From: Planctomycetaceae bacterium
GTDB lineage: Bacteria > Planctomycetota > Planctomycetia > Pirellulales > Pirellulaceae
Direction of reading: 5' to 3'
DNA length: 64,000 bases
Assembly: GCA_012729315.1 (NCBI GenBank)
Contig: JAAYDI010000175.1
Location: forward strand, 1-64,000
The notes beneath the pieces were generated by a model. The model worked only from the letters and a program-made list of their open reading frames with translations. It searched no databases and had not been told where the DNA came from. Each line of letters starts with the position of its first letter. The stretch's first letter is position 1. Positions 22,914-59,461 of the stretch are shown here, piece by piece. A program made the translations under genes and the position numbers.

Positions 22914-24200
22914 TCAGCGCGCCTTGTCCGAAATATCCTTGCGGCACCAGGCACCGGGCCAGCGAATATATTTGACTGCGGTGTACGCCTGGAGTTTGGC
23001 GGTGGGGATCGAGTTGCCCAGCGCGGTGACGCCCACCACGCGCCCGCCGCTGGTGAGTACCTGGCCGTCGACCAGCCGGGTGCCGGCGTGGAAGACCTTG
23101 ACGTCGGGCAGGGCGGCGGCCTGTTCCAGCCCCCGGATGGGCTGGCCGGTTTCGTACTTGCCCGGATAGCCTTCCGCGGCCATCACGACACAGACCGCCG
23201 GGCGCGGATCCCATTCCAGGGGCGCGAGTTCGTCCAGCCGCTGGTCGACCGTGGCTTCGAGGATATCCACCAAATCGCTGCGCAGACGCATCAGCAGCGG
23301 CTGGCATTCCGGGTCGCCGAACCGCACGTTGTACTCCAGCACCTTCGGGCCCTGGTGGGTGATCATCAGCCCGGCGTACAGCACGCCGCTGAAGGGGCGG
23401 CGCGATCGTTTCAACGCGTGGACGGTCGGCACCAGCACATGCTCTTCAATCCAGGCCAGCATGGTCGCGTCGACCAGCGGGGTCGGGCAGTACGCCCCCA
23501 TGCCGCCCGTGTTCGGGCCCTGGTCACCGTCGTAGGCCGGCTTGTGGTCCTGAGCCGGTGTGAGCGTCACGATGGTGCGCCCGTCGGTGATTGCCAGCAC
23601 GCTGGCCTCCTGGCCGTCGAGTCGTTCCTCGAAGATGATCTCCCGGCCGGCATCGCCAAACTCGCGGTCCACGATGATCCGCTCGATGGCGGCCAGCACC
23701 TGTTCGCGGCGCGAGCAGACGACGACACCCTTGCCGGCGGCCAGGCCATCGGCTTTCACCACCAGCGGGACTTCCTGATCCTTGTCCGGGTAGCGATCGG
23801 TCACGAAGCGTGCGGCGCTTTCGGCGTCTCGGAAGGCGTGGTAGTCGGCCGACGGCACATCGGCGTTGCGCAGCAGGTTCTTGCAGAAGACCTTGCTGCC
23901 TTCCAGCTGTGCGGCCGCTTTCGAGGGGCCGAACACGCGCAGTTGCTCCGCCTGCAGGGCGTCGACGATCCCGGCGGCCAGCGGCGCTTCGGGGCCGACC
24001 ACCGTCAGCCCCACGTGGTTCTGTTTCGCGAACTTGATCAGCTGCGGAAAGTCGCTGGGACTGATCGCGACGTTCTCGGCATCTTCAGCGGTTCCGGCGT
24101 TGCCCGGCGCCACGAACACGCGATCCACCCGTGAACTCTGCGCGATCTTCCACGCCAGGGCATGCTCGCGACCACCGTTGCCCACCACTAAGACGTTCAT
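22914..24200 (-). CDS. purD: Phosphoribosylamine-glycine ligase
   Basis: The 428-residue ATP-grasp enzyme joins glycine to phosphoribosylamine in the second step of purine synthesis. It begins with MNVLVVGNGGREHALAW and contains VVKADGLAAGKGVVVC, GPNTGGMGAYCPTPLV and NVRFGDPECQPL, all GARS signatures. The ATG at 24200 was chosen because the conserved N-terminus starts there, although the frame opens at 24428. It is convergent with recG across 73 bp. No other pur gene is in the window. Confidence 0.96.
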   Translation of the reverse strand: MNVLVVGNGGREHALAWKIAQSSRVDRVFVAPGNAGTAEDAENVAISPSDFPQLIKFAKQNHVGLTVVGPEAPLAAGIVDALQAEQLRVFGPSKAAAQLEGSKVFCKNLLRNADVPSADYHAFRDAESAARFVTDRYPDKDQEVPLVVKADGLAAGKGVVVCSRREQVLAAIERIIVDREFGDAGREIIFEERLDGQEASVLAITDGRTIVTLTPAQDHKPAYDGDQGPNTGGMGAYCPTPLVDATMLAWIEEHVLVPTVHALKRSRRPFSGVLYAGLMITHQGPKVLEYNVRFGDPECQPLLMRLRSDLVDILEATVDQRLDELAPLEWDPRPAVCVVMAAEGYPGKYETGQPIRGLEQAAALPDVKVFHAGTRLVDGQVLTSGGRVVGVTALGNSIPTAKLQAYTAVKYIRWPGAWCRKDISDKAR

Positions 24201-24727
24201 TCCTGAGTGTCCCTCTGCCAGATGACTCCTGCTGACCGAACGGGCCGGCAACCGCCCGGCCCCGAACGCGGGAACAACAGTATCACAGGCGATCTTCCGA
24301 GGGTCAATTGCCGGCACACCGCCGCCGCTCCAGCGATGGGGACGGCCCGCGGGACCTGCGCGGTCCCCTTTTCGCGGTTTGCCTCCCGTCCTCCCTTGTT
24401 GGCCGTGCGACGTGGCAGCACGCGTCATCCCGTCTGTTCTGTGCGGCTTAGCTTCGTCAACCGTGCCGCACTGCCGAGCAGCGCCGATCGCAAGATCCGT
24501 TTCCGAGCCTGCCGCCTCACGGGGCGCAGGCGCCGATTGCGGGTGCGTGCTGTGACTGCGCTCGCCGGCGCGTGTTTTGATTGTGCGGGCATTCCTTTGG
24601 CGAGCTGGTCACACCCTACCGGATTCCAGACCACTGCACGGAAATGTTCGTGGTGTTCGTCGTCACATCTGTTCCGTGCGGAAACGGCGTGGCATCGCCG
24701 ATGCGAACGTGCTATCTTCTTCCGGTG
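24201..24727. other. Gene-free divergent gap between purD and the Rieske gene
   Basis: No open frame here looks like a gene. The gap must hold the divergent promoters of purD and the respiratory cluster. TATCTT at 24713-24718 is a weak -10 candidate but lies only about 10 bp before the Rieske start codon. A 16-base stretch at 24392-24407 resembles the beginning of the intergenic repeat described at 34548, with one mismatch, but the similarity stops there. Confidence 0.4.
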
Positions 24728-27580: not shown

Positions 27581-27589
27581 TTGCCTGCC

Positions 27590-30500
27590 ATGCCTGCGAC
27601 GGACCAGACCTACTACAACCAGAAGAGCCTGCACCGGGTGTTTGCGGTGGCGAGCGTGCTGTTGTTGGCAGCGACTGTGTGGGTGTTGGTGGTCGATCAT
27701 CGTCGGCCGTGGAAGCAGATCCAGCGCACGAGCGATCGCCTGGAAACGCAGGTGACACGCTGGCGCCAGCTGCAGGCGCTCACGGAAGATGTCGTGAACG
27801 AGCGGGAGCGGCTGGCGCAGAACCTGGCGGAGGAACAGTCGCAGGAGTTGCCCGGCGCCTTGCTGGCGGTGCTGCGCGACGAGATCCGCCAGGATGCCGC
27901 CCGCCGCGCCGAAGCGGCGCCGTCGTTCGATGCGTTGGACGAGGCGGTTGAGCAACTCACCGCGGCGGCCGCGCAAGCGCAGGAAGCGCGTCGCGTGTGG
28001 CAGGCGGCACGGCTGCAGGCCGACAAAGCACGTCTGGACGCCGATGATGCGGCCGCACGCGCCCGGGCTGCCGCCGGCTCGGAGGGCGAATCGCTCGAGC
28101 GCGGCGGCCCGGTGCTGCAGGCTGCCCTGGAACAGACGCGGCGCGCGGAAGCGGAGGCGTTGGCCGCTCGCCGAGAGGCGGAAGCCGCCGTGCTGCCCCG
28201 GCGCCAAGCCGCGCTTGCCGCGCTCCAGGGATGGGTCGATCAGGCGCGGTTTCGGGAAGACACGCTGCGCCGCCAGGGCCGGTTCGAGCGCGCTGAGCTC
28301 GATGCGGCCCGGTCCGCGTACGGCCTGGCGGTCAGCGCCGGCCGGTCCGCGGCGACGCTGCAACAGCTGCAGACGCAGATCGACCGCCGCCAGGCGGAAC
28401 TCGACCGGTTGACGCGCGCCGGCGACGCGGCTGCCGACCACCGCCAGCGGCTGCAGGGCATGCTGCGGCAGATGACCGATAATGAGCAGGCGATCCGCAA
28501 GAAGCTCAACGCCCTCGAGCAAGAATCGCGTCGGATGGACGCTCTGGTGGCCGAGAAACGATCGACGTATTTCACCTTCACGGGGTACCTGCCGCGGCTG
28601 GGCAAGCGGTGGCTGGAACTGCCATTTCTGGATGCACTGAATTCGCCCCGCCGGATCGACAATCTGTGGAGCGATGGGCTCGATCAGCCGTGTGGCAGCT
28701 TCGGCCGGGTACGGCGTTTTGACCGCTGCGTGACCTGTCATCAGGGGATCCAGAAACTGCTCGGCCCGGCACCCGACCAGCCGCTGTTTGCCCCGGAGAC
28801 GACGGTGGAGTTCGCCCTGGAGCTGCCCGACCAGACTGCGCCGACCCCGGCCGGGCCGGCGCTGCCCGCGTCCGAACCCCACGCGGCGGCGACCGGACAA
28901 CTGGACTCGCAGCTGGAGGATCTGTGCGGCATCCGGCTCTCGTCCACCGGCCTGCTGGAGCCCGCCGCGCCCACGGTCATGCGGGTGGTTCCGCAAAGCC
29001 CGGCGGCCAACGCACGTGTGTGGCAGACCGGTGAACAGACCGTGCTCGGTCGGGACCTGCGCGCACAGATGCTGCAGTCGGATCCGGCGCGCCAGCCGCC
29101 TGCCGGCACGTCCTGCGGCCTGCTGGTGGGTGACGTGATTGTGGCAGTGGATGGCCATCCCGTGCCGCAAGTGCGCGACCGCCGCGCATGGGTGGCGGAG
29201 CAATGCCTGGCGGCGGCTGCGGCGCGCCGCGCGGCGCTGGCAGCGGGTGAGACGCCGCGGCCTGCATTGCGGGTGACTGTGCGCCGCGGACTGCCACATC
29301 CCTATGCCGGGCATCCGCGGCTCGACCTGTTCGTAGGTCCGAACAGTCCTCATCCGGCGAGCCGGTTCGGCTGTACCGTGTGCCACGAAGGGCAGGGGAG
29401 TGCCACCGCCTTTGAATGGGCGTCGCATGCACCCAACGATCCCGGCGCCCGCCGCCGCTGGCAGGAACAGTACGGCTGGTTCGACAATCCGCACTGGGAC
29501 GCTCCGATGTACCCGCGCCGATTTGCCGAAAGCGCGTGCCTGAAGTGCCACCACCAGGTCGTTGACCTGGAGCCGAGTGAACGGTTTCCCGATCCCCCGG
29601 CTCCCAAACTGCTGGCCGGCTATCGCCTGATCCGCACCTACGGTTGCTTCGGGTGCCACGAGATCGATGGCTACAGCAGCACGGGTCGGCGTGTGGCCCC
29701 CGACCTGCGTGTGGAGCCGCAGGATCAGGACTCCCCCGGCACGTTCCGCAAGGTCGGTCCGTCGCTGCGTTTCGTCGGCGCGAAGCTCGATCTGCCGTTC
29801 CTGTTCGACTGGATTCAGCGGCCCGCCCGGTTCCAGCCGATGGCGCGCATGCCTCAGGCTTTCGGCCTGTGGCAGCACCTGCCCAGCACCGATGTGGAAC
29901 GGCAGCGCGAGGCGCTGGCCATCTACAGCATGGCCGTCTACCTGCAGGAACGGAGCCAGCCGTACGACTACGCGCAGCCACCGGCAGAGGTCACTCCGGT
30001 CGCGACGGCCGAACAAGTGGAGGCGCGGATCCAGCGCGGACGCATTGTATTTCAACAGAGCGGCTGCCTGGTCTGCCACAGCCATGCGGACTTCCCGGAC
30101 GTGGCCAGGTACCGGGACGACGATGCTGTGGAACTCGGCCCCGACCTGTCGAACACGGCTGCCAAGTTCGCTGCCAGCCGGCATCCGCACGGTGGTCCGT
30201 GGCTGTACAGCTGGATCCGGCAGCCGACCCGCTACGATGCCCGCACGGTGATGCCCGACGCGCAACTGAGTCTGGTCGAGCAGCGCGATGAGCGCGGTCA
30301 GGTCGTGGCGATCACCGACCCGGTGGCTGACATCGTGGCCTATTTGATGAGCCGCCCGGCAGGTGACTGGACGCCGACTGCGGACGCCCTCGTGCAGCTG
30401 GACGAGTCACAGCGCGTAGCGCTCGAACAACTGACCCTGACGTACTTGCGCGACGACTTTCCCGAAGCGACGGCCCAGCGGTTCCTGCGCGAGGGCATTC

Positions 30501-32272
30501 CCGCAGCCGAAGCGCAGACGATGAAAGGGCCCGAACGGGAACTGAGCGTGGACGCGCCGGCCGATGGGGGCGGGACGCCGGCCGACCTGGTCCGGAAACG
30601 CACCTTCTACGTCGCACGCAAATCACTCCTGGCCCACGGCTGCTTCGCCTGCCACGAGATCCCGGGGCTGGAAGAGGCCAAGCCGATCGGGCCGAGTCTG
30701 ACCGGCTGGGGGCGGAAGAACACCGCTGAACTGGCCTTCGGGCATGTCGCGCAGTACGTCCGGCAGACCGCCCCGCCCGCCGATACGCTACCACCGTACT
30801 TCCGAGAGCAGCTGCAGTCGCACAGCCGGATCGGTTTCATCTTCCAGAAGCTGACCGAGCCGCGGAGTTTCGACTTCCAGGAGACGCACAACAAGAAGTA
30901 CACGGCACGGCTGCGCATGCCGCAGTTCCCGCTGAACGCTGCGGAGCGGGAGGCTGTGATGACGGTCATACTCGGACTCGTCTCCGATCCCCCCACGGAA
31001 GCCTTTGCCTACCAGCCAGACACCCGCACGGCGGCGCTGATCCGCGGCCGCGAAGTGCTCAGCAAGTACCAGTGCCTCGGCTGCCATGTGCTCGAACCGG
31101 AGACGTGGCAGGTCGCGCTGCCACCGGACAGCTACGGCGCGCAACCGGCGCAGACCACTTATCCGTTTGTGCACGCGCCGGTTGATGAGGCGACGTTGGC
31201 CGCTGCGCGGCAGACCGACCGCCGCGGCCTGCGCACTGCAGTGCTGCGCGGCATGCCCGCCCTGGGGCACGACGGCCGGGCGGCCATCTTCGATCCCGAC
31301 GAGTTCCCGCTGGAAGAAGACGAAGAGGCGCCGTTCGCTCCGGATCAGCTCCTGTACGGCTTCGACCTGTGGCGTCCCGCGGTACTCGATGGGTGGCCGT
31401 ACCAGGTGGGTGAGGGGATGCTGGTGATCCCGTCCACGCAGCTCGAGCAGCGGCGGCGCGCGTACGGTGGGGCCTTGACCCGGTACCTGCTGCCACACGT
31501 GGTGGAACGCGAGCGGCGGGAGAATCCCAGCGCGAAAGGGTCCGAAGCCTGGGCCTGGTTGCCGCCACCGCTCTGCGGCGAAGGAGGCAAAGTGCAGCCC
31601 GCCTGGCTGAACGATTACCTGCTTGACCCGCATCCCGTCCGCCCCGCCGCCCTGATGCGGATGCCGAAGTACAATCTATCCCCCAGCGAAGCGCAGGTGC
31701 TGACCGACTACTTCGCCGCCCAAGACCGGGCCGCGTATCCGTACCCGGTGGCCACCCAACGCCGGGAAACGTATCTGGCACAGGCCAGTGCCCGCTACGC
31801 GCAGCGGCTGGCCGCGTCGTCCGCCCCGGACACCGCCTCACTGGAACTAGAGGCGTCACCTGCCGGCCGGCACCTGGGGGATGCGATGCGGATCGTTACG
31901 AGCGAGAACTACTGCATCAAATGCCACCGCGTCGGTGACTTCGACCCGGGGGGAATCGACCGTGTCAAAGCGCCGGATCTGGCGGCCGTGTACCAGCGAT
32001 TGCGGCCAGATTACGTCCGCGCCTGGCTGGCCAAACCCAACGCCCTGTTGCCCTACACCGGCATGCCGATCAATATCCCGTACGACCCCGCGGCCCCCTT
32101 CCTCGGCGCTGCCGCGTCGCAGGATCTGTACCACGGAACCAGCCTCGAACAACTCGATGCCCTGGTCGATCTGCTCCTGAATTACGACCAGTATGCCCGG
32201 CAGCAGGCACGCGTCGCGCCGTTGGTGGAGCAGCAGAAGAGCGGCGCGGAAGCGGCCGGGAAACGGCCCTGA
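27590..32272 (+). CDS. Giant membrane-anchored octaheme cytochrome c with coiled coil and PDZ-like segment
   Basis: The 1560-residue protein has one N-terminal membrane helix (about 16-36, FAVASVLLLAATVWVLVV) and then a long Ala/Arg/Glu/Gln-rich coiled coil to about residue 320. Eight CxxCH heme sites follow, at Cys380, 595, 650, 686, 826, 1018, 1162 and 1442 (CVTCH, CTVCH, CLKCH, CFGCH, CLVCH, CFACH, CLGCH, CIKCH). Between the first and second heme, around residues 500-530, GLLVGDVIVAVDGHPV looks like a PDZ domain core. It should receive electrons from the Rieske/cytochrome b module in the periplasm. The ATG at 27590 is used; a TTG at 27581 is in the same frame. No obvious Shine-Dalgarno sequence, which suggests coupling to the upstream stop nine bases away. 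Confidence 0.92.
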   Translation: MPATDQTYYNQKSLHRVFAVASVLLLAATVWVLVVDHRRPWKQIQRTSDRLETQVTRWRQLQALTEDVVNERERLAQNLAEEQSQELPGALLAVLRDEIRQDAARRAEAAPSFDALDEAVEQLTAAAAQAQEARRVWQAARLQADKARLDADDAAARARAAAGSEGESLERGGPVLQAALEQTRRAEAEALAARREAEAAVLPRRQAALAALQGWVDQARFREDTLRRQGRFERAELDAARSAYGLAVSAGRSAATLQQLQTQIDRRQAELDRLTRAGDAAADHRQRLQGMLRQMTDNEQAIRKKLNALEQESRRMDALVAEKRSTYFTFTGYLPRLGKRWLELPFLDALNSPRRIDNLWSDGLDQPCGSFGRVRRFDRCVTCHQGIQKLLGPAPDQPLFAPETTVEFALELPDQTAPTPAGPALPASEPHAAATGQLDSQLEDLCGIRLSSTGLLEPAAPTVMRVVPQSPAANARVWQTGEQTVLGRDLRAQMLQSDPARQPPAGTSCGLLVGDVIVAVDGHPVPQVRDRRAWVAEQCLAAAAARRAALAAGETPRPALRVTVRRGLPHPYAGHPRLDLFVGPNSPHPASRFGCTVCHEGQGSATAFEWASHAPNDPGARRRWQEQYGWFDNPHWDAPMYPRRFAESACLKCHHQVVDLEPSERFPDPPAPKLLAGYRLIRTYGCFGCHEIDGYSSTGRRVAPDLRVEPQDQDSPGTFRKVGPSLRFVGAKLDLPFLFDWIQRPARFQPMARMPQAFGLWQHLPSTDVERQREALAIYSMAVYLQERSQPYDYAQPPAEVTPVATAEQVEARIQRGRIVFQQSGCLVCHSHADFPDVARYRDDDAVELGPDLSNTAAKFAASRHPHGGPWLYSWIRQPTRYDARTVMPDAQLSLVEQRDERGQVVAITDPVADIVAYLMSRPAGDWTPTADALVQLDESQRVALEQLTLTYLRDDFPEATAQRFLREGIPAAEAQTMKGPERELSVDAPADGGGTPADLVRKRTFYVARKSLLAHGCFACHEIPGLEEAKPIGPSLTGWGRKNTAELAFGHVAQYVRQTAPPADTLPPYFREQLQSHSRIGFIFQKLTEPRSFDFQETHNKKYTARLRMPQFPLNAAEREAVMTVILGLVSDPPTEAFAYQPDTRTAALIRGREVLSKYQCLGCHVLEPETWQVALPPDSYGAQPAQTTYPFVHAPVDEATLAAARQTDRRGLRTAVLRGMPALGHDGRAAIFDPDEFPLEEDEEAPFAPDQLLYGFDLWRPAVLDGWPYQVGEGMLVIPSTQLEQRRRAYGGALTRYLLPHVVERERRENPSAKGSEAWAWLPPPLCGEGGKVQPAWLNDYLLDPHPVRPAALMRMPKYNLSPSEAQVLTDYFAAQDRAAYPYPVATQRRETYLAQASARYAQRLAASSAPDTASLELEASPAGRHLGDAMRIVTSENYCIKCHRVGDFDPGGIDRVKAPDLAAVYQRLRPDYVRAWLAKPNALLPYTGMPINIPYDPAAPFLGAAASQDLYHGTSLEQLDALVDLLLNYDQYARQQARVAPLVEQQKSGAEAAGKRP

Positions 32273-32625: not shown

Positions 32626-34332
32626 CTACCAGCGACCTTCGATGCCGGCGCTGATGCCCTGTGCCCAGTAGTTGGACTCCTGGAAGGCGAATTCGGGGCG
32701 GAGCGGGCCGGCGAGCGGTACGATGGGGGGGGCCATCTGGTCGGGGTTGACGTCCAGGTCCATCTGGTTGCCCACCCGCACGACCGGCCCCCAGAAGATG
32801 AAGGTATAGCCGACGGTGGCACGCACGTGTTGTGTGATCTGCAGGCCGACGATGGCGCTGAGTTCCGGTACCACGGTGAACCGGTCGCGGCTGTGGAATC
32901 CGATATTGGACGGCTGGGCCAGGACGCCCCCCACGTACGTCGCGGTCTGGGCCCCGGGCTGCGAAATGGCTGTGGCGCCCAGAATGTCCACCTCCTGGCG
33001 GCCCCAGCCAAACGCTGTCTTGGCGGTCAGGTCCAGGGAGAACCGCTGCCAGCCACCCTGCCAGATCGCTCCGAGGTCGAGCGCGTGGAGCTGATTACGC
33101 GTGTCGAACAGGTCGTACAGCTGATAGTTGGCGAGTGAGTTGCGATCGAGCGACGTCAGGTCCTCGCCTATGAACAGGTGATCGTTCAGCTGCATGTAGC
33201 GGTAACCGGTGATCATGTCGACGCGCGAATACGCAGTGGTGCGCTCGTTGCAGAACGATTCGCAGGCGAGCAACGAGCGCAGCGCGATGCTGGCGGACTG
33301 CAGCTCCGACGTCGCATTCACGACGACTGTGCCCCGCATCACATTGGGGTAGGAGATCAGCTGCGCGTCTTCACGTGGCGGTGGATCGAATGCGTGGGTG
33401 ATCGGTGTGCGCGGGTTGATGTTGAAGAAGGGCCGGGCCAGAATGGGATCTCCTGAGGCATTGCCGGTGGCAACGAAATCGGCCTCCTGAGTCTCCAACA
33501 TGAAGTACTCGCCCTGCACGCCCCACTGGCTGAGGCGATCAAAGTACAGTCCGGAACGCACACGTACACCGCTCGTGTTGCCGTCCAGCAGGTCCTGGCC
33601 GCCAAACAGGATCACCGTGTCAGGTTCACCCAGGACTCCGGCTTGATCGCGCGGAGTGCCCGCCGGACTGCTCGTGACCAGCGCCGGAACACGCATCCCG
33701 TCGGTTCGCCACAACAAGTACTCGGCACCTCCCCAGATCCAACCCCGCGGACCACACGGCGTGGGCGAACTGTCCAGCGGCATCGCCAGACCCGGGACCA
33801 TCACCCCCGGCGCGCCCACATCCGACAGGCCCACATCCGGCGGGTCGAGACGCGGCAGGTCCATGCCTGGCAGAGCCAACTCCTGCTCCGTCACGGGCTC
33901 CGTGAACTGGGCGAGCCCGATGTGCGGCTGGGGACTCCGCTGCGATTTCCCCCGGGGCCGTTGTCCCGGCGCTCGCGCGCCGGCATGCGCGATCCGATCC
34001 ACCCACAGCCGCGGTTCGCCCTCCGTGCGCAGTATCGGCTCCCGGACGCTGACCGAGACCGTCTCGCCTTCAAAACTGTCCATGTCCAGCGATTCACGTG
34101 GGATCAGATATGCCTCCAGCTCCCCCTGCTCGTCCACCAGCACATAACGGTCTTCCCGCCGTTCCAAGCGGCCTGTCATGACATATGAACCGACTGAGCC
34201 GACCGGCCCGGACTCCTCACGCTCCACAGCCGCTCGACGCGGTGAAAGTGCCTGTCCCCACGCCGAACAGGACAGTGTCAGCGACACGAGCAAGGCAATG
34301 ACGGTCAAAACCGAAGTAACACAAGCCTGCAT
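32626..34332 (-). CDS. BBP7-type outer-membrane beta-barrel protein
   Basis: The 568-residue protein has a signal peptide (MQACVTSVLTVIALLVSLTL to SAWGQ), a Pro/Gly-rich linker with a tandem PxxGxP-like section (DLPRLDPPDVGLSDVGAPGV), then a barrel. The barrel starts with WGGAEYLLWRTDGMRVPALV and ends with ESNYWAQGISAGIEGRW, the aromatic-terminated end expected for outer-membrane insertion. This pattern matches the planctomycete BBP7 family; no channel or adhesin role is proven. Monocistronic, opposite in direction to its neighbours. The ATG is preceded by GGGA at about eight bases. Confidence 0.85.
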   Translation of the reverse strand: MQACVTSVLTVIALLVSLTLSCSAWGQALSPRRAAVEREESGPVGSVGSYVMTGRLERREDRYVLVDEQGELEAYLIPRESLDMDSFEGETVSVSVREPILRTEGEPRLWVDRIAHAGARAPGQRPRGKSQRSPQPHIGLAQFTEPVTEQELALPGMDLPRLDPPDVGLSDVGAPGVMVPGLAMPLDSSPTPCGPRGWIWGGAEYLLWRTDGMRVPALVTSSPAGTPRDQAGVLGEPDTVILFGGQDLLDGNTSGVRVRSGLYFDRLSQWGVQGEYFMLETQEADFVATGNASGDPILARPFFNINPRTPITHAFDPPPREDAQLISYPNVMRGTVVVNATSELQSASIALRSLLACESFCNERTTAYSRVDMITGYRYMQLNDHLFIGEDLTSLDRNSLANYQLYDLFDTRNQLHALDLGAIWQGGWQRFSLDLTAKTAFGWGRQEVDILGATAISQPGAQTATYVGGVLAQPSNIGFHSRDRFTVVPELSAIVGLQITQHVRATVGYTFIFWGPVVRVGNQMDLDVNPDQMAPPIVPLAGPLRPEFAFQESNYWAQGISAGIEGRW

Positions 34333-34485
34333 CGGACGATCCCGATCGTAAGAGGAGATGGAGCCGGACAGGATGCACAGAATATGCGCGAACGACTTGT
34401 AACGAAAACCGGCCGATCACACAAGATCGTGTTGCGATACCCCCCGTCGCGTGAGGTGCAGGAACACACTTTCTCGGGAGAGAGA

Positions 34486-34620
34486 CCAGGGGAATTCAGG
34501 AATTTAGGAATTCAGGAATTTAGGAATGTGTCCGTGTGGCACGTCCCTTGTTAGCCGTGCTGAAGGAGCGGATCGGTGAGCCCAACAGCTGCGCCCGCTC
34601 GGAAATGGAATGGACCGGAC
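34486..34620. repeat. Intergenic repeat, copy 1
   Basis: It begins with four octamers of GGAATTCA/GGAATTTA (34491-34522, plus a partial fifth), then a spacer, then a 73-nt core (34548-34620). The core matches 57720-57792 at 65 of 73 positions with no gap, and all eight differences are transitions. GAGCGG can pair with CCGCTC inside the core, and in copy 2 the partner is CCGCTT, which keeps pairing through G-U. Confidence 0.85.
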
Positions 34621-34821
34621 AATCGCCACGTCGCACGGCCGCTGGACAGGCGGATTGGCTGATTTGGGGGGTGTGGGAGAGAGTGGAGGTGTGGAGACGT
34701 AGAGAGGAGACCGCAGGAACGAGGAGAGAGTTGGGACGGTGAAAGGCTCGGTCATTCCGAGCCGGTTGTAGTGGACAAATCCATGCCATGGATGGGCCCA
34801 TTCGCATGGACTGCCTACCTC

Positions 34822-35053
34822 CTCACCGTACAGCGGTTACATCCCGCAATTGGCCGAAGGCCACTATCAACGTAGCGTGGGGCACCGCCCCAGGAAATCG
34901 AAGCCATGGCACACGTTTGGCTGAAGGCCAAACTCACCTACGGCATGGTCTCCCATGTGTGAATATGGCCTTCGGCCAAACATCTCGTTGTGCTCCCATT
35001 CCTGGGGCGTTGCGCGTTGCCCCAGGCTACGGTGAGAACTGACCTTCGGCCAG
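34822..35053. repeat. Cluster of short inverted repeats (GGCC-GAA-GGCC family)
   Basis: Hairpins seen directly: TGGCC/GGCCA with loop GAA (34851-34863); TGGGGC/GCCCCA (34878-34892); TTTGGCT/GGCCAAA with loop GAA (34916-34932); TGGCC/GGCCA with loop TTC (34966-34978); and CCTGGGGC/GCCCCAGG, 8 bp (35001-35026). CTCACCGTA (34822-34830) is the inverse of TACGGTGAG (35028-35036), tying the ends together. A degenerate CCTTCGGCCAG follows at 35043-35053. It looks like one structured element or several stacked repeat copies. Confidence 0.75.
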
Positions 35054-35227
35054 ACGACAGCTATCCCGGTACCGCACCCCTGGTGCAGGGTCGCCAACCT
35101 GGCACAGGGTTCGCAGTGAGAAGTAAACCGTTAATGCGAAGTGGCTCACCGGTGGAACAAATGTCAAAACCGGCACCAGGGCCGTTTCTTCGGGCCTTTC
35201 ACCACGCCGCTCAAGACGTGGAGTCGC

Positions 35228-56646: not shown

Positions 56647-57513
56647 TCAATGCACTTCCCCACGCCTGCCGAACCAGAGCGATCCGAGGATACAGAGGAT
56701 CTGCAAAGCGTAGGTGGCGCCGTGCAGACCCCCTGCGGCGCCAATCACATAGATGAACGACTCGAAATACCGCGCGATCCACCAGCCGCTGATGTCCAGC
56801 AGCACGCCCAGCATCGGCAGGGGCCCCAGCAGCAGCTTGACGCCCTGCGGCAGGCCGGTCATCAGGAACAGTACTCCGACGACGAACGTGAACACGGGGA
56901 CCGTCATGACGTGGGCGTGTGTCACGTGTACCAGCCGGGCCGTGCTTGGCGGCTTGATCTCGACCGTCTGCACCCCCGACGGCTCGCGCGTGATCTTGGG
57001 CTTGGCCGTCACCATCACCAGCTTGTATTCCGGATCGTCGGTGCCCGTCGCCGCGTAGGGGATCTCTTCAATGTCACCTCCATCCGCATGGTGGCACTCG
57101 ATGCACTGAGCCTTGATCACCGCCTGGGCCGATGGGTCCCCCGACTCGGCCAGCCCCTCCTGCGCGAATTCCTCCTCCTTGGCAGCGTTCTCCAGCCAGG
57201 TGATTAACCCACGCACGGCCGGCTCACCGCCTCTGTCCAGATACTCACGCATCCCGCCCCCAGGACGCACCTCGGCCAGCATTTGGGAATTGACGATGAT
57301 CTTGTCTTCCGGCTGAAACGTCCTCGTCATCCCGTGAAACGCGGCCCGCAGGTCGTCCACGGTCATCCCCGGCTCGCCGTCCGCGTTCTGGTGCTTGAAG
57401 TAGATGTTGGCGGTCCCGCACAGGTATCCCGGTCCGATCGTCAGCAGCAGAAGTGTGATCAACAGCTTGGCGGGCAGCGAAAGACGTACCAGACGCAGTG
57501 CATCCCAGTTCAT
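56647..57513 (-). CDS. Membrane protein with one c-heme site
   Basis: The 288-residue protein has an N-terminal helix (PAKLLITLLLLTIGPGYL), a periplasmic part with one heme motif CIECH (Cys137, Cys140, His141), and then three or four C-terminal helices (TVPVFTFVVGVLFLMTG, LLGPLPMLGVLLDISGWWI and others). The segment VHVTHAHVMTVP has several histidines that could coordinate a second cofactor. I do not recognise the family by name. It is divergent from the diheme peroxidase gene and may be its electron donor or membrane link. Confidence 0.82.
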   Translation of the reverse strand: MNWDALRLVRLSLPAKLLITLLLLTIGPGYLCGTANIYFKHQNADGEPGMTVDDLRAAFHGMTRTFQPEDKIIVNSQMLAEVRPGGGMREYLDRGGEPAVRGLITWLENAAKEEEFAQEGLAESGDPSAQAVIKAQCIECHHADGGDIEEIPYAATGTDDPEYKLVMVTAKPKITREPSGVQTVEIKPPSTARLVHVTHAHVMTVPVFTFVVGVLFLMTGLPQGVKLLLGPLPMLGVLLDISGWWIARYFESFIYVIGAAGGLHGATYALQILCILGSLWFGRRGEVH

Positions 57514-57676
57514 TTGTGGAGTCCCCCCGAATAGCGGCCGTCTTCAGTCAGCCCAATGTTCATCGCGATCGCTCTGCCCGACCCTGCGGATCGCGTCGCG
57601 ACGCCTGCTTCCAGACACGAAAGCTATCACACTCGCCAGGCAACCTCAATAGAGGCCGGGCCGCTTCACCGAGGTG

Positions 57677-57792
57677 CCAGGGGAATTCAGGAATTCAGGA
57701 ATTCAGGAATTCAGCTTACTTGTTAGCCGTGCTGAGGGAGCGGACCGGCGAGCCCAACAGCTGCGTCCGCTTGGAAACGGAACAGACCGGAC
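57677..57792. repeat. Intergenic repeat, copy 2
   Basis: Four perfect GGAATTCA octamers (57682-57713) are followed directly by the 73-nt core (57720-57792). It lacks the 15-20 nt spacer that separates octamers and core in the copy at 34486. Confidence 0.85.
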
Positions 57793-57833
57793 GCTTGCCC
57801 CTGCGCACCACGCATGCAGGCCGGCGAAACCAG

Positions 57834-57863: not shown

Positions 57864-57940
57864 GAAACTTCGGTTTCACGGTTCTACGGTTTGACAGTGC
57901 GGCAGTACATCATTCAGGTTGCTTGTGGGAGGAAAGAACG

Positions 57941-59461
57941 ATGCGAGTCTCCAGAGTGAGTTATTGGGTCGCGCACAGCGCGATCATCCTGGTGCTGATC
58001 TTCCTCGTCCAAGGTTGCGCTCCCAAGCCGAAGGCCAAGCCCGTCGACGCGGGCGCGGAGAAGCCGACGACGGAGGCTGCCCAGCCGGCCATCGAACCGT
58101 TACAACCTCCTCCGCCCAAATTCTACTCCGAGGTGGAGCCACCGGCAGCCGAACCGGCAGAAGAGCTGCCAGCAGAGCCGGCCATCGATCCGGCAGAAGG
58201 GCCGGCCATTGAACCGGCAGCTGAACCAGTAGCAGAGCCGGCCATGGAACCAGCCATCGAACCAGCGGCCGAACCAGCAGTGGAACCTGCCATCGAACCG
58301 GCAGCTGAACCAGCGGCAGAGCCAGCCATCGAACCAGCGGCCGAACCAGCAGCCGAACCAGCAGTGGAACCTGCCATCGAACCGGCAGCTGAACCGGCAG
58401 TAGAGCCGGCCATGGAACCGGCAGCTGAACCAGCAGCGGAGCCGGCGATCGAACCGGCCGCTGAGCCGGCTGAGCCGGTCGCCGAACCGGAGCCGGCAGC
58501 CGTGGAGCCTCCCGCGCCGACGGCGTTCACGGTATCGGTGCCGTTGGGACTGCCCCCGCTGCCGATCCCTGACGACAACCCGATGACGGTCGAGAAGGTG
58601 GAGCTGGGCAAGATGCTGTATTTCGACACCCGCCTGAGCAAGGATCAGACGGTATCGTGCGCGACGTGTCACGATCCGAAGATGACCTGGGCTGAGCATA
58701 AAGCGACGAGTGAGGGGATTGGTGGCCAGTTCGGCCAGATGAACTCGCCGACGGTGATCAATTCGGCCTATGCGACATCGCAGTTCTGGGATGGTCGGTC
58801 CGACACTCTGGAAGCGCAGGCTGTGGGTCCGATGCAGAACCCGATTGAGATGGGACATTCGCTGGTCGAGCTGGTGACGCAGCTCAACGAGGTGCAGGAG
58901 TACAAGGAGCGGTTCCAGAAGGTATTCGGGACGGAAGTGACGGCGGACGGCATGGCCAAGGCGATTGCCGCATTTGAACGGACTGTGCTGAGCGGCAATT
59001 CGCCCTACGACAAGTACGAAGCGGGGGACAAGGCGGCGTTGAGCGAGGAGCAGATTCGCGGCATGAAGCTGTTTGACGACGCCGGTTGTTCGTCCTGCCA
59101 CGCGCCGCCGCTGTTCAGCAACTACAAGTTCTACAATGCGGGCGTGGGTTCGCAGAAAACCCCGCCGGATCCGGGGCGGATGGCGGTCACCAACGACGAG
59201 TCCGACCTGGGCAAGTTCCGCACGCCGGCGCTTCGCGAAGTGGCCAATACGGCTCCTTATTTCCATGACGGCAGCTGCGCCACACTGCCCGAAGCGGTGG
59301 CCATGATGGCCGGGGGTGGTATCGACAACCCGAACCTCTCGGCCCTGCTCAGGGGCATCGGTGCGCGGGGGCTGTCCGATCAGGACAAGGCGGACATCGT
59401 CGAGTTCCTGCAGGCGCTCAGCGGCGAGTACCCGATCGTCGAGGCGCCGGCGCTGCCCTGA
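57941..59461 (+). CDS. Diheme cytochrome c peroxidase (MauG/CcpA family) lipoprotein
   Basis: The 506-residue enzyme probably reduces hydrogen peroxide in the periplasm with electrons from a c-type cytochrome. A lipoprotein signal ends with LVQGC (Cys26). Then comes a long Pro-Ala-Glu linker, and from about residue 205 the peroxidase with two heme sites, CATCH (Cys240) and CSSCH (Cys383). GKMLYFDTRLSKDQTVSCA and KFRTPALREVANTAPYFHDG are family signatures. GGGAGG stands nine bases before the ATG at 57941. The linker is not part of known CcpA proteins and should act as a spacer from the membrane. Confidence 0.94.
   Translation: MRVSRVSYWVAHSAIILVLIFLVQGCAPKPKAKPVDAGAEKPTTEAAQPAIEPLQPPPPKFYSEVEPPAAEPAEELPAEPAIDPAEGPAIEPAAEPVAEPAMEPAIEPAAEPAVEPAIEPAAEPAAEPAIEPAAEPAAEPAVEPAIEPAAEPAVEPAMEPAAEPAAEPAIEPAAEPAEPVAEPEPAAVEPPAPTAFTVSVPLGLPPLPIPDDNPMTVEKVELGKMLYFDTRLSKDQTVSCATCHDPKMTWAEHKATSEGIGGQFGQMNSPTVINSAYATSQFWDGRSDTLEAQAVGPMQNPIEMGHSLVELVTQLNEVQEYKERFQKVFGTEVTADGMAKAIAAFERTVLSGNSPYDKYEAGDKAALSEEQIRGMKLFDDAGCSSCHAPPLFSNYKFYNAGVGSQKTPPDPGRMAVTNDESDLGKFRTPALREVANTAPYFHDGSCATLPEAVAMMAGGGIDNPNLSALLRGIGARGLSDQDKADIVEFLQALSGEYPIVEAPALP
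58129..58498. repeat. Pro-Ala-Glu coding repeat in the peroxidase gene
   Basis: About 370 bp of degenerate tandem repeats encode AEPA/IEPA/VEPA units. The units have a mixed period of 12 and 15 bp and vary in the third codon position, but the amino acids stay Pro-Ala-Glu. Confidence 0.85.

Follow-up and report, generated by a model that had tools for sequence, protein, structure and literature searches.

A dispersed non-coding repeat of a Planctomycetaceae bacterium as the probable decayed MITE of a promoter-targeting transposon

Two 73-nt sequences in a 64,000-nucleotide stretch of a Planctomycetaceae genome (the window, which is the whole stretch analysed) raise the question of what kind of element they belong to. 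The two cores (Table 1) align without gaps and with 8 differences (89% identity), all of them transitions; both are intergenic under codon-usage gene calls and both are preceded by octamer arrays, as the initial annotation of the locus had described. The description as a two-copy repeat had to be given up, since a 135-bp query returned at least 44 matches at E<=1e-3 in the same genome and a third piece lies on the minus strand of the window itself. Judged from its sequence, the larger repeat to which the cores belong, here called element 1, is most probably the decayed MITE of a promoter-targeting transposon. It would operate in the manner of the p-MULT elements (ISLre2/ISKra4/TnGBS), of which it is a candidate member.

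Two arguments that had been drawn from the cores carry less weight than expected. The restriction to transitions is true of this core pair and unremarkable as a signal, with p about 0.085 for 8 of 8, because 36 transitions and 13 transversions separate eight family copies from their own consensus. The argument that most changes alter amino acids depends on the reading frame: in the three that stay open in both cores, the nonsynonymous changed codons number 6, 2 and 6 against 1, 6 and 1 synonymous ones, so that it applies to two frames and is reversed in the third. A coding gene was rejected on account of this disagreement and of the dispersed mosaic structure. No Pfam match at E<=0.1 was obtained for five short ORFs that cover window copy 1 and the neighbouring element 2.

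Element 1 is a non-coding mosaic that runs from A-GGTGCAGGAACG to CGTTCCTGCACC-C, with an GGAATTCA array and a hairpin inside. Comparison of copies together with their flanks yielded the order of the modules. The left end (A-GGTGCAGGAACGCACTTTCTCGGGAGAG) is followed by octamers like GGAATTCA and by the left hairpin arm (CTTGTTAGCCGTGCTGA); a loop separates this arm from the right one, after which come the third arm (CGTCGCACGGCCAACAAG), other modules and the right end. Different internal pieces are missing from different copies, and the two cores of the window are members of a deletion subfamily, of which eight selected copies were aligned. Window copy 1, whose right end is absent, is homologous to other fetched loci from -13 to 235 and from 244 to 275 relative to 34455. 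Copy 2 begins with the left-end stub AGGTGC (57672-57677), about 27 nt having been lost between stub and array; part of the third arm is kept in copy 1 and almost none in copy 2. The third piece is 79% identical to copy C102 over its full length and 83% identical to C96 over 24441-24529.

Table 1. Positions of the repeat copies and neighbouring features in the window.
Feature	Position	Strand	Remarks
Third element 1 piece, 5'-truncated	24395..24529	-	overlaps called ORF 22914-24428 by 34 nt
Putative beta-barrel porin gene (BBP7, PF07585)	32626..34332	-	Pfam E 5.8e-97; start faces copy 1 left end
Possible sigma70-like promoter, copy 1	34396..34424	-	TTGTGT-17-TACAAG, chosen by eye; reads toward BBP7 gene
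Element 1, window copy 1	34454..34731	+	left end, octamer array, left hairpin arm, part of third arm, module fragments
Left terminal inverted repeat, copy 1	34454..34466	+	AGGTGCAGGAACA (family AGGTGCAGGAACG)
Array of 8-nt units, copy 1	34491..34530	+	GGAATTCA / GGAATTTA
First 73-nt core	34548..34620	+	left hairpin arm and loop, internally deleted subfamily
Element 2, different high-copy non-coding repeat	34732..35208	+	adjoins copy 1; ends TGGGACGGTGAAAGG...CCTTTCACCACGCC
Possible sigma70-like promoter, copy 2	57621..57649	-	TTGAGG-17-TAGCTT, chosen by eye; toward called gene 56647-57513
Element 1, window copy 2	57672..57808	+	left-end stub, array, core; right part absent
Array, copy 2	57682..57713	+	four GGAATTCA units
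Second 73-nt core	57720..57792	+	same deletion subfamily

The genome comprises 213 contigs and 5.47 Mb. The 44 matches, a lower bound from 40 scored of 93 first-look candidates, correspond to 40 loci once merged, and 63 loci carry at least a fragment of the larger element when three match lists are united with five further end matches. The left-end pattern is matched by window copy 1 and 34 other copies, and both ends are present in C96 (299 bp), C172 (379 bp) and C40 (86 bp). The exact 12-mer end GGTGCAGGAACG occurs 39 times in the 5.47 Mb, at least five times outside element 1; no element sequence was found at the exact end matches C38:54456, C84, C96:13772, C126:8195 and C161. With one mismatch allowed, the end pattern is too loose for copy counting (80/70 versus 47/32 in the control). 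Used as a query, C172 gave 58 matches in its own genome, mostly to its interior, which suggests that a third repeat family is shared with element 1 or has been taken up by it.

The annotation had left the choice between a structured RNA and a mobile non-coding element. A structured non-coding RNA family has become very improbable, and the stem thought to be kept across the cores did not survive folding: as RNA, the cores fold no better than shuffled sequences (z +1.09 and -1.12; 171 and 29 of 200 shuffles fold at least as well). The 121-nt window stretches give z +1.15 and +0.38 as DNA, and the window copies are without intact 3' arms. Among seven two-armed copies folded, C126 (z -5.3) and C157 (z -4.6) fold well, as an RNA family would lead one to expect, but the five others are weak (between -0.7 and -2.0). 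Moreover, compensatory changes in the arm pairs of copies with both arms number 0 of 17 and 0 of 14, and RNAalifold's own structure has two-sided change in 3 of 40 pairs and a covariation term near zero. Rfam yielded no match at gathering score in the window, and a scan of seven loci that hold long copies returned only tmRNA at E<=0.1. The hairpin looks like inherited, drifting cargo rather than a selected RNA.

The other half of the annotation's choice, a mobile non-coding element, is well supported by the inverted-repeat ends, by the dozens of dispersed copies, by the deletion subfamily, by the occurrence in another genus of a family whose ends are of this type and by exact 9-bp target duplications at the two complete copies C96 (CAGCGGGGG) and C172 (CTGCGGACG). 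Such a duplication was found at the far side of none of 22 other left-end copies tested, the two-ended C40:95191 included. Like a MITE, element 1 is short, has terminal inverted repeats and a target-site duplication, and carries no transposase gene.

Among 149 genomes sampled from the family, its own included, a matching 76-bp left end was found in the own genome and in G101, the representative of the other genus; the same-genus genome G001 had no element 1 match at threshold. In G101, 13 near-identical right ends lie at or up to 30 nt from contig ends, the shared 17 nt recur at 17 further places listed, and all 13 of these that were fetched are left ends. The G101 ends share GGGTGCAGGAACGCACTTT over 19 bp and have a terminal G in 26 of 26 cases, and the own MITE ends agree exactly across 12 bp only; the right ends of C172 and of G101 have TTTTAGGC and ACGTTGGGGCGAAATGG in common. 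The G101 ends, which match the own ends, also make 9-bp duplications: among 169 left/right comparisons five pairs carry identical duplications (9/9), the next best reaching 6/9. Element 1 is probably a MITE derived from the IS-like family of G101. The left end of the latter leads into AGGAGG-N8-ATGGGCAAGGAC..., likely a gene start, at the contig end. No transposase was seen in the at most about 140-170 nt of element interior that the contigs reach, no interior contig was present among the listed G101 matches, a pattern scan of viral contigs for a transposase-bearing element gave no hit, and plasmids searched with both G101 ends gave no match. Two right-type ends, L201 and L202 (G101 contigs C109 and C108), share one flanking 9-mer, possibly from an element with two right ends.

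Element 2, which adjoins copy 1, is about 477 bp long, and its internal dyad bears GTAG-tagged REP-like palindromes. Scoring 40 places of 180 candidates gave 76 matches, its own dyad included and many at contig ends. Many contigs of the genome terminate within element 2, where the assembly is probably broken, and copy numbers are for this reason lower bounds. Four copies were compared with both flanks: C6 (GGTGCAACC) and C68 (CCTGTGAGT) have 9-bp duplications, the window copy and C5 have none. Several insertions of element 2 into element 1 were seen. Sequence related to element 2 occurs in 7 of 40 genomes searched, the own genome included, and is longest in G001 of the same genus.

Another candidate reading is that element 1 is itself a repeat of the REP/BIME type, with a RAYT (tyrosine transposase) as its mobiliser. 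A first sequence pattern found nothing in genome contigs, and a second found five loci, all in the Candidatus Anammoximicrobium AS06 MAG, where a REP-like hairpin around GCACGGCC-AACAAGTA-GGCCGTGC stands alone, with longer stems at some loci. The resemblance of this hairpin to that of element 1 and the presence of one Y1 transposase match in the own genome would suit a RAYT origin, which we nevertheless consider very unlikely. That match (C70:16347-16688), the only Y1/RAYT match in the genome, is flanked by GTAG palindromes of the element-2 type, and no piece of element 1 turned up beside it when the RAYT locus was compared by BLAST with the fetched loci; a RAYT/REP origin of element 1 was rejected on this association with element 2. 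Element 1 has neither the GTAG or CGTC tag nor the RAYT association of a REP/BIME. Its 9-bp duplications also disfavour a Y1 mobiliser, from which such duplications are not expected. Compared with the GTAG/CGTC-tagged REPs and RAYTs of PMC3733652, element 2 is similar in its GTAG palindromes, including those at the sole Y1 match, whereas element 1 differs in its inverted ends and 9-bp duplications and is not a REP.

The position of element 1 relative to genes points to the kind of transposon behind it. Genes were called with a home-made codon-usage score trained on the window, and 3 of 43 query-matched places lie mostly within a called ORF. Of the 25 own copies that could be scored, 24 have their left end toward a gene start (p 2e-6, against a baseline of 52% from twenty 20-kb control stretches), and 21 of these 24 genes are within 250 bp; on the far side the ratio is 11:11. 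The 25 are those of 35 left-end copies with a usable gene on the left-end side. Ten were dropped, four with no gene called (C152, C174, C31:21761 and C96:1700, the last with a tmRNA at about 165 bp whose transcription leads away from the copy) and six flagged inside an ORF (C112 and C175 with the gene toward, C49 and C96:7286 with the gene away, C172 and C5:290 with no call). The four flagged copies with a call split 2:2 and bring the total to 26 of 29 when included, and stricter gene calls keep the bias at 24:2 and 23:3. Element 2, taken as an orientation control, gave 11:7 and 9:9. G101 left ends face a gene start in 9 of 11 cases (alone p 0.046), its right ends in 7 of 13. A gene was called beside six of the 11 own right ends listed, and in five of these six cases the end faces the gene's start, which speaks against strict polarity. 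A Pfam scan of 19 of the 25 left-end-side genes, plus one other, returned mixed families, only PF01261 twice, five genes without match and no transposase; a regulon of one function was rejected on this mixture.

The left ends also keep a preferred distance from promoter-like sequences. TANNNT (-10-like) hexamers occur 45-59 nt outward 17 times in 35 own left flanks versus about 4.1 times in shuffled ones, 9 times in 13 G101 left flanks and once in 13 G101 right flanks. For promoters predicted with a home-made sigma70 matrix, the start of the best -10 falls within 40-56 nt outward in 18/33 own left flanks (two of the 35 with short flanks dropped), 11/13 G101 left flanks and 0/13 G101 right flanks. 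A near-identical scan places it there at 6/24 and 4/28 element-2 ends (10/52), 2/10 own right ends and 20/130 random windows near gene starts. Fisher p values are 1e-5 for own left ends against gene-start windows, 9e-4 against element 2, and 1e-5 for G101 left against right. The contrast between the two G101 ends is the stronger evidence, because the 40-56 nt interval was chosen after the TANNNT peak had appeared. A narrower 45-56 interval holds 13/33 own (shuffled mean 3.1), 8/13 G101 left (1.2) and 0/13 G101 right flanks. In the window, the -10 of copy 1 chosen by eye begins 54 nt outward, the matrix's top match in that flank being TATTCT at 71, and the -10-like box of copy 2, also chosen by eye, begins 47 nt outward from the left stub.

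The same pattern could arise if insertion were random and copies were retained where the left end supplies a promoter, an UP-like or an insulating sequence, that is, by exaptation as a mobile promoter or upstream regulator. Left ends are indeed retained more than right ones (35 vs 11), the A+T-rich octamer array adjoins the left end, and the idea of a "putative mobile promoter" has been raised for BrickBuilt (PMC4596501). The -10-like boxes, however, sit in flanking DNA outside the element, and the G101 copies, whose near-identical ends make them probably young, show equal spacing with little time for long-term selection. Exaptation therefore appears unlikely as the origin of the pattern, and targeted insertion is the reading preferred here.

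Targeted insertion of this kind is described in PMC3942029 for p-MULT transposases, which are Mutator-like, make duplications of 8-9 bp and have inverted repeats of 18-39 bp with a terminal C. ISLre2/TnGBS (p-MULT 3) and several ISKra4 elements (p-MULT 4) target the upstream side of sigmaA promoters; for the former a single orientation predominates, at 13-17 bp from the -35 box (TnGBS 15-17), with IR-right as the promoter-adjacent end in p-MULT 3. According to the same text, p-MULT 4 is known from Planctomycetes, ISKra4-group elements with near-perfect repeats have promoters on both sides, and promoter-targeted, oriented insertion, as in ISLre2/TnGBS and part of ISKra4, is unusual among prokaryotic transposases (PMC3942029). 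According to PMC9208149, ISLre2 and ISKra4 show a preference for positions 50-250 bp from genes.

Element 1 and the G101 elements resemble the p-MULT group, as far as that text portrays it, in their 9-bp duplications (8 or 9 bp), in the 19-bp shared ends of G101 with a conserved terminal base (the own MITE matching exactly over 12 bp only), and in left ends that lie in one orientation upstream of predicted sigma70 promoters. They differ in that element 1 is mainly a non-autonomous family and that the best -35 box is 26-30 bp from the G101 left end in 7 of 13 cases and 16-17 bp in 3 of 13, against the 13-17 bp reported. Furthermore, the promoter-facing G101 end precedes a putative ORF start, where AGGAGG-N8-ATG suggests a left end (the ORF is cut at the contig end), whereas it is the right end in PMC3942029; and the G101 ends share 19 bp, yet have promoters on one side only, unlike those of ISKra4. 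Given the difference in the usual spacing and a transposase that has not been seen, element 1 is not assigned to p-MULT. The nearest MITE anatomy is that of BrickBuilt from Porphyromonas gingivalis (PMC4596501), which likewise combines an intergenic position and short inverted ends with a tandem array in its interior, distal deletions and MITE-within-MITE nesting. BrickBuilt differs in its 23-nt units and 4-nt duplications, and the accessible part of that paper reports no promoter-spaced orientation. Titles and abstracts among the literature matches listed, from a coverage that leaves out most subscription journals, contained no MITE with promoter-spaced insertion.

In the mechanism that we consider probable, a DDE-type transposase from related insertion sequences, such as those of G101, would have moved element 1 in trans. 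It would recognise the 12-19 bp terminal repeats and cut the target with a 9-bp stagger. Through contact with RNA polymerase or promoter DNA, the machinery would prefer sigma70-type promoters and dock the left end toward the promoter, so that element 1 would end up upstream of the -35 box and genes would be spared. After insertion, internal modules and usually the right end would be lost, and the remainder would drift and receive other repeats such as element 2. The sequences themselves show the ends, the 9-bp duplications, the number of copies, the G101 family with matching ends, the orientation and the distance to -10-like boxes; the type of transposase, its contact with RNA polymerase or promoter DNA and the movement in trans are inferred from them. 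A bolder version, which we put forward tentatively and hold to be less likely than not in its full form, is a planctomycete transposon that seeks out promoters and whose MITEs install themselves, with one particular end leading, at sigma70 promoters throughout the genome. The distances would be helically phased, with about 17 or about 27 bp to the -35 box and so a difference of one DNA turn, which would make this a new variant of spacing and end polarity. If this were true, dozens of installed copies may now serve as shared upstream promoter modules.

A Pirellulaceae MITE family with a promoter-targeting habit would extend this habit to non-autonomous elements and would allow likely sigma70 promoters to be read off an uncultured genome. 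The spacing difference of about one helical turn could further provide a handle on how the transposase meets RNA polymerase.

Two other features of the window were recorded. A 12-bp tandem repeat at 58129-58506, within ORF 57923-59461 (CCP_MauG, PF03150), is translated into a Pro/Ala/Glu-rich repeat, and a 1563-aa ORF at 27581-32272 with many CxxCH motifs probably encodes a multi-haem cytochrome.
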